Origin: an uncultured bacterium | GTDB lineage: Bacteria > Pseudomonadota > Alphaproteobacteria > Rs-D84 | Assembly (NCBI GenBank): GCA_950096895.1 | Contig: CATNBF010000005.1 | Location: 1 to 61,225, forward strand | Length of the DNA stretch: 61,225 bases | Direction: 5' to 3' | Shown: positions 10,644 through 55,025 of the stretch, piece by piece | Layout: the number at the start of each line of letters is the position of its first letter | Numbering within the stretch: position 1 is the first letter of the stretch | The notes under the pieces: generated by a model | What the model was told of the DNA's origin: nothing | What the model saw: the letters and a program-made list of their open reading frames with translations, nothing else | Databases searched by the model: none | Made by a program: the position numbers and the translations under genes

Positions 10644-11514
10644 TTATGCCAGCAAGCGACGCCAATTATTAATGGCCAATTGCTCTATCAGGCCATAGTT
10701 CTGATAGGTACGGCCGAACCAATAAAGTTGCATTTCAAGATAATATAAAACATATATCTCGTTTTTTTCTGCGGCGGCCCGTCCACCTGTTACGTCGGCC
10801 AACTGTTCATCGCATAGAATACGTAATAAGTCAAAATTTGGATCGCCCACCATAACAGATTCGAAATCGATCAGATGAACCTGGCCATCATGTCGGTCAT
10901 AGACGACGTTATGACAACGCAGGTCGCCATGGATGACACATGGGTCGACATCTTTTAGATATGTTTTACATTGATTAAACAGGCCCCAAATGCGATTGCG
11001 TAAATGATCATCCAAGAATTCAGATGGAACCAAATCCATTGATTTTTGTAATTTATATTGAAATAAATCATGCCATGTTTGAAAGTCTTGATGTCCGGGA
11101 TAATCAGAAACATTTGCACGGACGGCATGTAATTTACGGACATTATCCAAAATACCAGAATAAATTTTATGAATTTGGGCGGTATCATAATTGAAATAGG
11201 TGTTTAATGCATCCCCATCAATCCATTCCGAGACCAAAATACCCGCATCAGAATTAAAATAGTGCAATTTTGGCAGTACCCCCCAGTGCAGGTGTATCTT
11301 TCAAAAACTGATAGGCTGCAAATTCGCGATCGGCATTGTCGGGATTTCTAAACAGATTATTCCGCAGCTTGTATTTATTTCCGGTATTTTGATCAATGAC
11401 CAAAAAGCATTTATCTTTGGTTTGTATTTTTTTCAAAACCAAGTCCATATTTTTGAAAAAGTCCAGATTTTCTATACGTCTGTATAAATCTGTTTCGATA
11501 CCATCGTATGCCAT
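10644..11514 (-). pseudogene. APH/choline-kinase-like phosphotransferase, frameshifted at a G6 run
   Basis: C-terminal ORF has VIHGDLRCHNVVYD and LIDFESVMVGDPNFDLL; N-terminal ORF 11254..11514 joins in another frame at GGGGGG. Confidence 0.75.
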
Positions 11515-11560: not shown

Positions 11561-11678
11561 GCGCACAAAAAACCGACGTTTTTCTGGCATAGTACGGGGG
11601 ATAAAAAAGTGGAGAAATCCGGGATTTTTAATGTTCAAAAACTATGCCAGAAAAACGTCCCTTTGGATTAGGCATAGT
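11561..11678 (-). repeat. Three-arm leader repeat, copy A
   Basis: About 115 bp near-identical in reverse complement to 47532..47652; perfect 18-bp inverted arms ACGTTTTTCTGGCATAGT/ACTATGCCAGAAAAACGT. Confidence 0.9.
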
Positions 11679-11700: not shown

Positions 11701-11730
11701 ATTATATGACATAGGGCGTTTTTTTTGCAA
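11701..11730 (-). promoter_or_regulatory. Sigma70-like promoter preceding repeat copy A
   Basis: On minus strand TTGCAA-N18-TATAAT. Confidence 0.6.
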
Positions 11731-11833: not shown

Positions 11834-12583
11834 TTAGAACGAATAGCGGGCACCCAACTTTAATTCATGGGCATAGACGAATTCGCCACCCACTGTTGAT
11901 GAATTAAAGCGATATGCCACATCGGCTGCCCAGTTCGGGGTAAAGTGATATGCCGTCCCCAGGGCAACTTGCCATTCGAATTCGGTCTTGTCGTGGGTTA
12001 CGCGGATGGGTTCGGTTGGTAACTGGCTTAGCATTGGGCCAACCAATCCCGCCAGTGCCGGGTTGATGTCCAGATTGATATCGACCTTGGCCTTTTGCTT
12101 GTACGTACCGACACCAATACCGGCCCCGATATAGGGTTGCCATTTGGAACCTGCAATATCAAAATCGTAATAGGCATTGAACATGTACGAGTTATGCTTT
12201 ACCGAAACAGATGTATTCGCGTTCAACGTTGCCATTCCTTCGCGTAATGCCGGGATCAGATGGCTGGCATCGCCATGAAACAGGTTATAATCATCTTCGG
12301 ATGCGCTGCGCAGTGCGAATTCGAATTCCCCGCGCAGGTGGCCATATTTAATCCCGGCGGTAAATTCCCCGGAGATGGCCGTATCAAAATTCATATCACC
12401 GCCAGCATCTTGGACAAAAATGTCGGCCATGCCGGTTGGATTCGGATTGATTCCCATACGTTTGGCCGATGTATTCGCGCTATCGATAACGACCCCCAGA
12501 CCAACGTATGGCGTCAAATCAGCCGCAACGGCACCGGTGGTGGCCATTGTTGCCAACGCAATGATACCAATTGATTTTTTCAT
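11834..12583 (-). CDS. Outer-membrane beta-barrel protein
   Basis: Signal peptide MKKSIGIIALATMATTGAVAA; alternating beta-strand pattern; terminal ...LKLGARYSF. Confidence 0.8.
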   Translation of the reverse strand: MKKSIGIIALATMATTGAVAADLTPYVGLGVVIDSANTSAKRMGINPNPTGMADIFVQDAGGDMNFDTAISGEFTAGIKYGHLRGEFEFALRSASEDDYNLFHGDASHLIPALREGMATLNANTSVSVKHNSYMFNAYYDFDIAGSKWQPYIGAGIGVGTYKQKAKVDINLDINPALAGLVGPMLSQLPTEPIRVTHDKTEFEWQVALGTAYHFTPNWAADVAYRFNSSTVGGEFVYAHELKLGARYSF

Positions 12584-33808: not shown

Positions 33809-33837
33809 TTTTTTGCCTTTCCATTCATTAATATTCA

Positions 33838-34135
33838 ATGTCCGGTTTCTGGTGCCAGGTACCGGACAAACCCCGCAATCGCTAAAACGAATACAATCAA
33901 CAATTGCCAACTGTATTCAACGCCACATTAGGCAGCCATTGCAAGACGAACATTATCGTTCGCATTCATTTTTTATTTGGTCTTTTACGACACCACGTCG
34001 GATTCAGCCATATACCTTTATTACGCCTGTCGAAACTGTATCATCCCCATGATTTTTTAGTGGTGGAGATGCCGGGTACCGCCCCCGGGTCCAAAACGTC
34101 TATTCCGTAAAGGGTTCAGAATCATCACCGTTTGC
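33838..34135 (-). ncRNA. ssrA: tmRNA, circularly permuted (alphaproteobacterial two-piece type); ends approximate
   Basis: Minus strand: acceptor piece ..GGACCCGGGGGCGGTACCCGGCATCTCCACCA, short spacer, then GGGGATGATACAGTTTCGACAGG and tag GCGAACGATAATGTTCGTCTTGCAATGGCTGCCTAA = ANDNVRLAMAA* (33928..33963). Confidence 0.9.
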
Positions 34136-34189
34136 ACGGCACATACATTATAATCTTTCCGGTGGAAATTGCAAGTTTTTAAGTTATAA

Positions 34190-39369: not shown

Positions 39370-39398
39370 TTGTAAAAAATCGCGGAACCGGTTATAAT
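39370..39398 (+). promoter_or_regulatory. Sigma70-like promoter preceding repeat copy C
   Basis: TTGTAA-N17-TATAAT. Confidence 0.65.
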
Positions 39399-39419
39399 TC
39401 CTGGCGTAGAACAAAAAAG

Positions 39420-39527
39420 ACCTATGCCTAATCTAAACCACCCTTTGGATTAGGCATTTTTTTTATTTTCAAAAACACCGGATTTCCGCCATTTCTGAAA
39501 GTGCCTACTATGCCTAATCCAAAGGGT
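39420..39527 (+). repeat. Three-arm leader repeat, copy C, including hairpin plus T8
   Basis: ATGCCTAATCTAAACCACCCTTTGGATTAGGCATTTTTTTT then ACTATGCCTAATCCAAAGGG. Confidence 0.8.
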
Positions 39528-39613
39528 CAGTTTCATCCTGTGAAACCCTTCCTTTTGCATTTGGCACGATGTAATGGAATCTTTACATCATAAATATAAA
39601 GGAGCAGATAATC

Positions 39614-40495
39614 ATGAAAAAAGTTGCGATTCTATACATTGCCTTGGGTCGTTACATTGTATTTTGGCGGGATTTTTATGAATCTTGCGAACGATACTTG
39701 GGGCCTTGTGAAAAACATTATTTTATCTGGACAGATAATCAAGAATTTGATTACTGTGATGCGCCCAATGTGACGGTTATCCCGGCGACACGTCGGGGCT
39801 GGCCGTATGATACATTGATGCGGTTCGAAATGTTTTTGGGCCAAGAAAGCGCATTGAAAAACTATGATTACGTTTATTTCTTTAACGCCAATATGGAATT
39901 TATCGCCCCTGTGGATTTGGCCGAAATTATACCATGCCCGTGGCACGATGGACTGGTTGCGGGATCGCATCCTGGGCGTTGGGGGGCGGGGGATACCTTG
40001 GCACACGAAATCGACAGCTTTCCCTATGAACGTCGTCCAGAATCAACCGCCTATATTCCCTTTGGGGCGGGGCGTTATTATGTCTGTGGGGCGTTTAATG
40101 GGGGAACGTCCGCGGCCTATTTGACGATGTGTAAAACACTGGCCCAGAATATACAAACCGATTTACAGCATGGCATTGTTGCACGTGTTGATGACGAAAG
40201 TCACTTGAATGCGTATTTATTAAATCGAAACTTCCGCTTGTGCGGGCGGGCCTATGGTTTTCCCGAAGGTAAGTTAAAACACATTCCGTCTATTGGGATG
40301 CCGATGGTAAAAATTATCAGTCGTCACAAAGACAGTCCGAAATACGGTGGGGTGTCATGGCTGCGGGGGAAAACAGATAAAAAAATGCCCAACAATTGGT
40401 TTACCCGGAACGTAATGCGGGGATGCGCCCGTGTGGTTGCCGTGTTTATACCGGTGCGTTCTGTGCGTCAACGTGTTCGAACCTATTTTGGGTAA
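39614..40495 (+). CDS. Glycosyltransferase family 6 (ABO / alpha-1,3-Gal(NAc)T-like)
   Basis: KVAILYIALGRYIVFWRDFYESCERYLGPCEKHYFIWTD; YVYFFNANMEF (NXN); HPGRWG; ERRPESTAYIPFGAGRYYVCGAFNGGTSAAYLTM; DDESHLNAYLL. Confidence 0.92.
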   Translation: MKKVAILYIALGRYIVFWRDFYESCERYLGPCEKHYFIWTDNQEFDYCDAPNVTVIPATRRGWPYDTLMRFEMFLGQESALKNYDYVYFFNANMEFIAPVDLAEIIPCPWHDGLVAGSHPGRWGAGDTLAHEIDSFPYERRPESTAYIPFGAGRYYVCGAFNGGTSAAYLTMCKTLAQNIQTDLQHGIVARVDDESHLNAYLLNRNFRLCGRAYGFPEGKLKHIPSIGMPMVKIISRHKDSPKYGGVSWLRGKTDKKMPNNWFTRNVMRGCARVVAVFIPVRSVRQRVRTYFG

Positions 40496-47480: not shown

Positions 47481-47509
47481 TTGTAAAAAATTGATGAATA
47501 CTTTATAAT
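47481..47509 (+). promoter_or_regulatory. Sigma70-like promoter preceding repeat copy B
   Basis: TTGTAA-N17-TATAAT. Confidence 0.65.
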
Positions 47510-47531: not shown

Positions 47532-47652
47532 CCTATGCCTAATCCAAAGGGACGTTTTTCTGGCATAGTTTTTGAACATTAAAAATCCCGGATTTCTGCA
47601 CTTTTTTATCCCCCGTACTATGCCTAATCTAAACGTCGGTTTTTTATGCGCA
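47532..47652 (+). repeat. Three-arm leader repeat, copy B
   Basis: Near-identical to reverse complement of 11561..11678 except arm 3. Confidence 0.9.
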
Positions 47653-49347
47653 ATAATCATGACCACGGCATCGGCATATGCCACAGGATACACATGTCTC
47701 ACATCAAAAAGATACACATCATGCAATACCGGTTATTACATGACGGGTGGAACCGGGGCCGGAAACGCATGTACCGCGTGTCCCGCGGGATGCACGTGTT
47801 CTGATAATACAACACCCACGTGTTGCAGCACGTCAAAGTCATGCGCCAGCCTGGGTACCGGTTGGACCGGTACGTATAATGAATGTACTGGAACCCAAGG
47901 ATCTGCATGCTCTAAACCTTGTTCCGTAACATGCAGTGGGAATAACACCGCACAATGTCCCGCAAATGCCAATTGTACGTATAACACCACATACCAATAT
48001 ACCGCAACCCAGTATTATGGCGGAAATTGTAATGCGTCTGGCACATGCCCAATGTCAACATTTACATGCAATTCTGGATTTCACCCAGATGGGAACACCT
48101 GTGTTTCAAATACCAAGCCGTGTTCTGGCAATTTAACCGATGCCACAGGCGGAAACATCGTATGGAATGGATCAAAATGGGATTATTCTGGGTGCACAAA
48201 ATCATGTGACGGGAATGGTATTGCACATGGTCTGGCGTATTTCGATGGTGATGCATGGGGCACATGTCGTCCAGAATCAACAACATACGGATGTCATTGG
48301 GGATATTACAACGACAATGGACAATCATGTAAAACATGCCCCGCAGGATCTTGGTGTTGGAATTATACGCAGCCATGTCCGGCGGGCTATTTCTGTCCAG
48401 TGGGGATATATGATCCCACATACGATGGATATAATGATAAATATAAATGCCCCCCAGGATATACCAGTGATGCCGGCGCAAAAGGTTCTGATAAATGTTA
48501 TAAATCATGTACCCGTTCATGCACACCCCAGACATGTCCCGCCAACGCCACATGTACACACCAAGAAACATCCCCAACATCTGGGATCGAGTATAATGGC
48601 GGTACATGCGATGCCCCGGCGTCGGCATGCCCCATGACATTTACGTGCAATCCCGGCTATTACGGCAGCAGTGCGAACAACGACACATCTTGTGCCGATT
48701 GTGGCCCCGGCAATTATTGTACCGGCGGCACCCATCGCGCCACATGCGAATCAACCATCCCAGATAACGCACCAGAACCACGTAAAATTAGCACCCTATA
48801 TAACGGCAATTGGGATGATCGTGATAAACATGGCACAAAAATCAGTGATTACATCTGTGATTGGTATTTTGACGATGAAACACGTACAGAATATTTACAA
48901 CAGGCCCGATGTTCGGCCGGCCCCGAAGGGTACAAATACACACATTACTATTGGTGCCGCCCGGGATATTATGCATCGGGGCCATTGACATGGGGAAACT
49001 GGTACACGGAATGTCTTGCGTGCACAAATAAACCTGATCATGCACACTTTACCAATTATGGAACCCCGTCTGCCGCAAGTGCAGTCGAAGACAATTGCCC
49101 ATGGGCATGTGATGCGGGATATGGTAAAACATCAAATAATACATGTGCCCAAATGTGTATGTCGGGAATTACATACTTAAAAAGTAATGGAATCAGTGTG
49201 CCGTTATACGCCACCCCACAAACCAGTCCCGCCAACAATGTTCAATTACCGGGTCAAAGTATCTGTTATGGGTCACTGGCAACTGGGGGCGGGGCGGATG
49301 CGATCAATATCCAATTTAATGGCACAATATATCATTCGATACAATAA
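47620..49347 (+). CDS. Secreted Cys-rich (VSP-like) surface protein; likely start inside repeat arm 3
   Basis: MPNLNVGFLCAIIMTTASAYATGYTCLTSKRYTSCNTGYYMTGGTG...; repeated CxxC units. Confidence 0.8.
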   Translation: MPNLNVGFLCAIIMTTASAYATGYTCLTSKRYTSCNTGYYMTGGTGAGNACTACPAGCTCSDNTTPTCCSTSKSCASLGTGWTGTYNECTGTQGSACSKPCSVTCSGNNTAQCPANANCTYNTTYQYTATQYYGGNCNASGTCPMSTFTCNSGFHPDGNTCVSNTKPCSGNLTDATGGNIVWNGSKWDYSGCTKSCDGNGIAHGLAYFDGDAWGTCRPESTTYGCHWGYYNDNGQSCKTCPAGSWCWNYTQPCPAGYFCPVGIYDPTYDGYNDKYKCPPGYTSDAGAKGSDKCYKSCTRSCTPQTCPANATCTHQETSPTSGIEYNGGTCDAPASACPMTFTCNPGYYGSSANNDTSCADCGPGNYCTGGTHRATCESTIPDNAPEPRKISTLYNGNWDDRDKHGTKISDYICDWYFDDETRTEYLQQARCSAGPEGYKYTHYYWCRPGYYASGPLTWGNWYTECLACTNKPDHAHFTNYGTPSAASAVEDNCPWACDAGYGKTSNNTCAQMCMSGITYLKSNGISVPLYATPQTSPANNVQLPGQSICYGSLATGGGADAINIQFNGTIYHSIQ

Positions 49348-53641: not shown

Positions 53642-53915
53642 TTTTTCTTTTTAAAAACCTCATAAAATCAATAATTTATCAATTATGTGCGCACGCCGTG
53701 GTACACCCATGGTACAAAAATCATCATAATTTACAAAAAAATACCACTAAACACCCCAAATTCTATGGTCGATATTGGTATTATATTATGTTGATGCACA
53801 AAAACTGTACCAACACCGAATTGAACGCACCCAAAAGTGCAGAAATTCAACCGACAAATCGACCTTGGACACAGATTATTTATCTGATGATCCAAAAACA
53901 GACGGGGTGTTAGCA

Positions 53916-55025
53916 ATGGCTACGTACCAAAAAAGAATTGGCCGGGACGGCACGGTATCATACCGCGCCCTGGTGCGTATTATCGGATTCCCGCCCCAGT
54001 CTGCAACATTTAAATCCAAGACCAAGGCCGCCGAATGGGCCATGCGTACAGAAATCGCCCTGCGTGACGGCAAGTATTTGCCGCAAATGGAATCCAAACG
54101 CCGTACCGTCGGCGAATTAATCGACCGGTATCTGAACGAAGAATTGCCCAAGAAACAAAACAAAAGCCGGGACATTCGTGTCCAACTGGGGATATGGCGG
54201 GATTTAATCGGTCAATATTCATTAACCGCGATCAAGACGGATATTTTAACCGCCGCCTTAAACAAAATTCATGATATGCCAACGCCCCGCGGGCGCACCA
54301 AATCGGCCGCAACGATGAACCGCTATATCGCGGCAATATCGGTTGTGTTTTCTTATGGGTACAAAAGTTTGGACTGGCTGTCCCATAATCCAATGGAAAA
54401 GATACGCAAATACACCGAACCCCGCGGCCGCCAGCGTTATTTGTCGGATGATGAACGTGACCGTTTGCTGGCGGCATGCCGGGAATCTAAAAATCTCATG
54501 CTGTACCCGGTGGTGTTGCTCGCGATTACAACCGGTGCCAGAAAGAACGAGATTTTATCCCTTAAATGGTCGGACGTTGATTTATATGTGCGCCCGGACG
54601 CCGGTATTGCGGTATTACAGGATACGAAAAACGGCGAACGTCGCACCATTGCGATTGTAGAGCCTGCGCTGTCCATTCTGCGCGATATGGCGCGGGTGCG
54701 CGGTGCGGCGGAATATTTGTTTCATGCCTCGCGCCCGGATGCCGCAACCGGACACGCAAACATTCATCACGCGTGGTATGCGGCCCTGCGCCGGGCAGGA
54801 ATAAGTGATTTTCGCTTTCATGACCTACGCCACACGGCCGCGTCATACTATATTCAAAATAATACGTCATTGCGCGAACTGGCGGATATTTTGGGGCATA
54901 AAACCATGCAAATGACACAACGATACGCGCACCTGGCGTCGGATCATCAAATTACCGCGGCCCAGCGTGTGATGACCGACCAGATATTTAAGATAAATTC
55001 CGCCACCACAACCCCCCAAAATTAA
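53916..55025 (+). CDS. Tyrosine recombinase / phage integrase
   Basis: TGARKNEILSLKWSDVD; FRFHDLRHTAASYYIQN; LGHKTMQMTQRYAHL. Confidence 0.95.
   Translation: MATYQKRIGRDGTVSYRALVRIIGFPPQSATFKSKTKAAEWAMRTEIALRDGKYLPQMESKRRTVGELIDRYLNEELPKKQNKSRDIRVQLGIWRDLIGQYSLTAIKTDILTAALNKIHDMPTPRGRTKSAATMNRYIAAISVVFSYGYKSLDWLSHNPMEKIRKYTEPRGRQRYLSDDERDRLLAACRESKNLMLYPVVLLAITTGARKNEILSLKWSDVDLYVRPDAGIAVLQDTKNGERRTIAIVEPALSILRDMARVRGAAEYLFHASRPDAATGHANIHHAWYAALRRAGISDFRFHDLRHTAASYYIQNNTSLRELADILGHKTMQMTQRYAHLASDHQITAAQRVMTDQIFKINSATTTPQN

Follow-up and report, generated by a model that had tools for sequence, protein, structure and literature searches.

Most DNA-inversion switches described so far flip promoters or recode genes. 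The sites of the Hin/Gin type are dyads with a 2-bp core, and serine invertases (Hin, Gin, Mpi) need identity beginning at that core. Promoters are the elements inverted by Mpi. Inversion that alters coding sequence is attributed to Chanin et al. 2024 and to Milman et al. (both cited in PMC11892184). Such intragenic or gene-altering invertons reportedly recode or truncate genes. In Clostridioides difficile, cwpV has its promoter upstream of the inverted repeats, and an intrinsic terminator is created or lost as the segment in the 5' UTR inverts, the gene being mostly OFF; the 195-bp segment contains neither promoter nor ORF and serves a single gene through the tyrosine recombinase RecV (PMC2784873). 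In Bacteroides fragilis, one trans-acting serine invertase, Mpi, acts on at least 13 dispersed regions, including polysaccharide loci (cited in PMC5903667). In Ureaplasma, inversion at the inverted repeats of mba/UU172 switches expression of surface proteins (PMC3047005).

Here, a family of short elements was analyzed, starting from three copies (A, B and C) in a 61,225-nucleotide stretch of DNA from an uncultured alphaproteobacterium, hereafter the window. As judged from sequence, the elements are very probably invertons, switches for phase variation, and a single conserved small serine DNA invertase most likely operates them in trans. Type I, to which copies A and B belong, carries an invertible translation start with part of a signal peptide, while type II (copy C) carries a predicted invertible terminator. 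For type II the logic proposed is that of cwpV, so that the terminator design is already known in principle; however, the segments described here are of ~87 bp, have serine-type sites and occur at many loci, and type I moves the SD and the coding start. As with Mpi, one trans-acting serine invertase, here a candidate, would serve many dispersed regions, but what inverts is the translation start or terminator, the promoter staying in place. The dyad sites with a 2-bp core resemble those of Hin/Gin, which are also the best PDB relatives of the candidate enzyme; the differences are that the segments are shorter than 90 bp and contain no invertase gene, and that no enhancer was identified. Inversion alters coding sequence as in the intragenic invertons, yet here it is the start codon and signal peptide that flip, regulon-wide, behind a fixed promoter. 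Ureaplasma mba likewise depends on DNA inversion at inverted repeats or sites, but there inversions produce chimeric genes within a locus, whereas every locus of the present family inverts a short start cassette of its own. The open literature searched yielded no regulon-wide switch of start codon and signal peptide behind a fixed promoter.

The three copies were located where the original prediction had placed them, at approximately 39.4, 47.5 and 11.7 kb (the last on the minus strand), with promoter hexamers exact in each. The earlier description also holds for the arms, for the CCGGATTTC spacer and for the T8 of copy C, and the assignment of the copy C gene to glycosyltransferase family 6 was borne out by its Pfam match. 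The features are as follows.

39370-39398, + strand: copy C promoter, with -35 TTGTAA at 39370-39375 and -10 TATAAT at 39393-39398; the family-wide spacing is TATAAT-23 nt-CTATGCC
39422-39459, + strand: copy C site 1 (type II), with fixed half CTATGCCTAATCTAAACC, core AC at 39440-39441 and moving half CCTTTGGATTAGGCAT
39457-39464, + strand: copy C T8 run, directly 3' of the hairpin in the assembled (predicted OFF) orientation
39440-39527, + strand: 88-bp segment of copy C predicted to be invertible, with cores AC/GT
39508-39540, + strand: copy C site 2, with moving half CTATGCCTAATCCAAAGG, core GT at 39526-39527 and fixed half CAGTTT
39614-40495, + strand: copy C gene, family 6 glycosyltransferase (Pfam PF03414, E=2.6e-22), with its own SD AAAGGAG and ATG
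47481-47509, + strand: copy A promoter, TTGTAA at 47481 and TATAAT at 47504
47551-47637, + strand: 87-bp invertible segment of copy A with cores GA/TC, OFF in the assembly
47638-49347, + strand: fixed coding part behind copy A, belonging to a Cys-rich protein of 569 aa that is predicted to be secreted
11701-11730, - strand: copy B promoter, TTGCAA at 11730 and TATAAT at 11706
11575-11659, - strand: 85-bp invertible segment of copy B with cores GA/TC, OFF in the assembly
10644-11514, - strand: gene downstream of copy B, choline kinase/APH-type kinase (PF01636, E=6.3e-16), split over two frames

Each of the three window copies is seen in one orientation only. Flipping copy A in silico brings an SD, a GTG and the signal-peptide start MQKSGIFNVQKLCQKNVGFLCAIIMTTASAYA in frame with the fixed part, which has no Pfam match. 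Flipping copy B also yields an SD and GTG, with an ORF that ends after just 22 codons, suggesting that this copy is either degenerate or acts via its hairpin and T5. The kinase gene behind it consists of two overlapping frames with a six-G run (about 11279-11284) at the junction; the split may reflect phase variation by slippage, decay or a fault of the assembly. An Opacity/OMP_b-brl porin gene (11834-12583, - strand; PF13505, PF02462) lies immediately upstream of copy B, and an amidase gene (PF01520) is next after the glycosyltransferase gene of copy C. The window also contains an alpha-tmRNA (33837-34178, - strand), which matches the permuted-tmRNA model as well, and an integrase-type tyrosine recombinase (53775-55025, + strand; PF00589), which has no close relatives in other element-bearing genomes and probably comes from a mobile element.

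The family was originally taken to have three copies, a number that proved far too small. There are 43 matches to CTATGCCTAATC in G000, the assembly that contains the window (998,742 bases in 41 contigs; sequence was read in the regions surrounding elements), and 41 in a congener, G020; a reversed-pattern control gave 0 matches in both. Gut alphaproteobacteria would carry at least 20 such tiny DNA switches per genome. The 19-base arm is present in many copies in a second MAG (G184; JAAVBR, Mgla_MAG_4-bin_5), which we take from its name to originate from termite gut, in several copies in JAIRLB (a Rickettsiales bacterium) and in single copies in a few other genomes. The layout recurs with diverged arms in other genus members, some with one copy found, and both ON and OFF states are represented there. 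An IMG/VR scan with the 19-mer arm found none, and the elements are hence not evidently phage-borne. One element of JAIRLB (L226, about 907-1060) has both sites in the same orientation, with a palindromic core GC and promoter-like sequence between them, and is located ~0.5 kb upstream of the serine invertase gene. In another congener (G101), a repeat different from the family, TATAATCAATAACTTGCGCATTCTTTCTCCTCTGCCTAAT, is present in ~17 copies and is possibly another multi-copy switch or repeat; a multi-copy TATAAT..CCTCTGCCTAAT repeat of that genome was set aside as unrelated.

In each element, a sigma-70-like promoter is followed after 23 nt by site 1; next come the invertible segment, 85-89 bp long, then site 2 and the gene. 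A spacing of about 22 nt from the -10 to arm 1 had been predicted; the spacing is real, with an exact value of 23 nt in nearly all copies. Promoter scores at site-1 arms are mostly 8-11, values of at least 8 being reached at ~2% of random positions. Two inverted sites flanking segments of 85-89 bp were parsed in 64 elements. Each site is a dyad about a central dinucleotide: site 1 joins the fixed half CTATGCCTAATCYAAASS to a half that moves with the segment. At site 2, a moving half meets one that stays in place; the latter is usually GG(T/G)TTT and, in type I, codes for a portion of the signal peptide. With the register of the site-2 core set by the first G of the run (GGT/GGG wobble), the core dinucleotide agrees between the two sites in 64/64 elements, compared with 32.9 on average and 45 at most in shuffles; at positions -2/-1 before the core, the sites agree in only about 20%. 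The cores are GA (44), AC (12), GT (4), AA (3) and TC (1, which looks spurious), and the AA/TT and GT/AC types imply that the match is not merely constant sequence. The original prediction also held that arm 2 had changed while complementarity to arm 3 was kept. This stands as a description of recombination sites, not as general RNA pairing, since type I copies of G184 have no long arm2:arm3 pairing. The different arm 2 reflects a difference of class (core GA in copies A and B, core AC in copy C), and complementarity is kept because two recombination sites need just a matched 2-bp core and half-sites. In copy A, arm 3 and arm 2 differ outside the core, leaving the site unbroken.

Evidence for inversion, an option that the original prediction had raised, is provided by the opposite spacer orientations among copies, by the matched cores and by single loci assembled both ways. 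BLAST of copy A on its own genome returned split hits (C17, C16) in which the middle, at 93-97% identity, lies on the strand opposite to the promoter. At the ends of G000 contigs C20 and C21, the first 126 nt upstream are identical, after which C20 is ON and C21 OFF; the last 141 nt of C20 equal C21 inverted in silico at the cores (141/141). Similarly, the start of G020 contig C10 (OFF) equals inverted C5 (ON) over 86/86 nt, and a 55-mer common to C5 and C10 occurs nowhere else within the sequence examined. Both orientations of one locus are hence present in G000 and in G020 at assembly level, at loci other than the window copies. As these are contig ends of metagenome assemblies, misassembly between paralogues could in principle contribute; the locus C1:34525 has a site-2 variant in common with C21, and the branch k-mer core also occurs in C16. 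In G020, 10 of the 20 contig ends fall inside elements, 5 of these at the arm end, as is expected if both orientations coexist, although repeats also break assemblies.

In one orientation, a type I segment provides the SD, a GTG, ATG or TTG and the signal-peptide start (for a G184 copy, MRKTGIFILGILSYANVGLFSAPTMA), all in frame with the fixed part. In 43 of the 45 type I loci with a gene, an in-frame start with an SD energy at or below -7 kcal/mol is found in exactly one orientation, and in none is it found in both; the exceptions are two G020 loci. With shuffled interiors the proportion is 5.7%. The assembled states in the parsed type I set are 36 OFF and 7 ON. In the ON state, the constant promoter would read into site 1 and onward through the SD, start codon and signal-peptide N-terminus, fused in frame with what remains of the signal peptide and with the mature protein. 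When the two sites recombine at their 2-bp cores, the ~87 bp between them would be inverted and these parts placed on the other strand, resulting in an OFF mRNA without an SD-linked start. An in-frame ATG in site 2 is still present in the OFF copies, which makes some SD-less initiation possible. The downstream proteins are diverse, Cys-rich and mostly without domain match, a few being similar to ephrin-receptor-like, TNFR-like or Giardia VSP-like Cys-rich repeats; the products are predicted from sequence to be secreted. A paralogous exported family (AEMVNVEYIHNAIKQKWDITVPYN...) lies behind both type I and type II switches (G000 C14:11153, C8:42626, C9:27023, C21:6536, C36:681, C17:17313, C40:4371).

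In type II, the gene of copy C has its own SD and ATG, 3' of site 2. Site 1 doubles as the stem of a terminator-like hairpin, and in-silico inversion replaces the T8 by AGTAGGCACTTT. As in cwpV, the promoter is outside the segment and the hairpin is followed by a T-run one way only (T8 versus none when flipped). The arm1:arm2 hairpin exists in both orientations, with 5-7 T in the following 8 positions one way and 1-2 the other in 13 of the 14 true type II elements. It looks like a terminator that is switched by DNA inversion and not by alternative RNA folding. Inversion would set the U-tract behind the hairpin in the OFF state and take it away in the ON state, when the gene would use its own start. 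Copy C, assembled with hairpin and T8, is predicted to be OFF.

The candidate serine invertase is a small PF00239 protein of about 215 aa (G000 C1:42634-43275), with orthologues at 73-88% identity in the element-bearing G020, G184, G185 and G186; its best PDB relatives are the DNA-invertases 4m6f and 3uj3 (E about 1e-12). It is the single small serine recombinase of G020. At an identity of at least 75%, below which there is a clear gap, it is present in 33 of 96 genus genomes. These comprise 11/11 element-bearing genomes (those with an element at no more than 1 mismatch) and 22/85 others, which have no element at that cut-off (p=2.2e-6, kinship ignored). Dyad sites with a matched 2-bp core are taken here as a hallmark of a serine invertase.

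The inversion could instead be the work of a tyrosine recombinase, either a XerC/D-like protein or an integrase like the one in the window. Tyrosine recombinases are present in all the genomes, and C. difficile RecV is itself one (PMC2784873). Only two, both Xer-type, are common to all element genomes, and that family is genus-wide; no element-specific tyrosine recombinase of the RecV kind common to the element-bearing genomes was found, and a tyrosine recombinase was rejected as the specific enzyme. Moreover, between-site identity begins at the 2-bp core, which suits serine invertases, and the serine orthologue tracks the presence of elements, making this alternative unlikely. It is less probable still that the spacer orientations are old fixed rearrangements, produced by repeat recombination during gene duplication, in segments that no longer flip. 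The single orientation of the window copies and the association of elements with duplicated genes would fit such a history. Against it, one locus is assembled both ways in each of two assemblies, exact to the base, the core dinucleotides co-vary between sites, and SD and frame are intact on the non-expressed strand in nearly all OFF copies.

The other option raised in the original prediction was an attenuator, considered here together with a riboswitch-like leader, in which arm1:arm2 and arm2:arm3 pairings exclude each other. Its hairpin and T-run are indeed found in copy C and other type II copies, and the arms are complementary. As a general mechanism it is very improbable: type I copies of G184 retain the 2-bp cores and half-sites despite lacking long arm2:arm3 complementarity, spacers occur in both orientations, and in-frame signal peptides on the opposite strand are left unexplained. 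The Rfam scan of the window gave only tmRNA and tRNA matches, none at an element. A MITE/REP-like repeat spread near genes with no regulatory role, named earlier as the fallback should copies lie in random orientation without promoters, would likewise be multi-copy with inverted arms. Its probability is negligible, since copies are anchored to promoters at a fixed 23 nt and co-directional with genes, and the segment is kept at 85-89 bp.

The elements are read as a real and large inverton family of two switch designs, most likely worked by the serine invertase. On the broader scale, it seems reasonably likely that one serine invertase runs a genome-wide bet-hedging secretome, in which dozens of unrelated, mostly Cys-rich exported proteins lie behind invertible cassettes of translation start and signal peptide, with sister invertible terminators for glycosyltransferases and others, and that this is common to mouse- and termite-gut alphaproteobacteria with ~1 Mb genomes. 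Such loci would help to explain breaks in metagenome assemblies, and where the genes are assembled OFF, annotation pipelines will overlook most of them or place their starts wrongly. The switch is compact and testable. By flipping the translation start together with part of the signal peptide, a type I cell would pay for a short transcript and make no protein. Whatever new exported domain came to lie behind the cassette would become phase-variable. A regulon of this kind in reduced-genome gut alphaproteobacteria points to strong pressure on the surface, from host immunity or phage.
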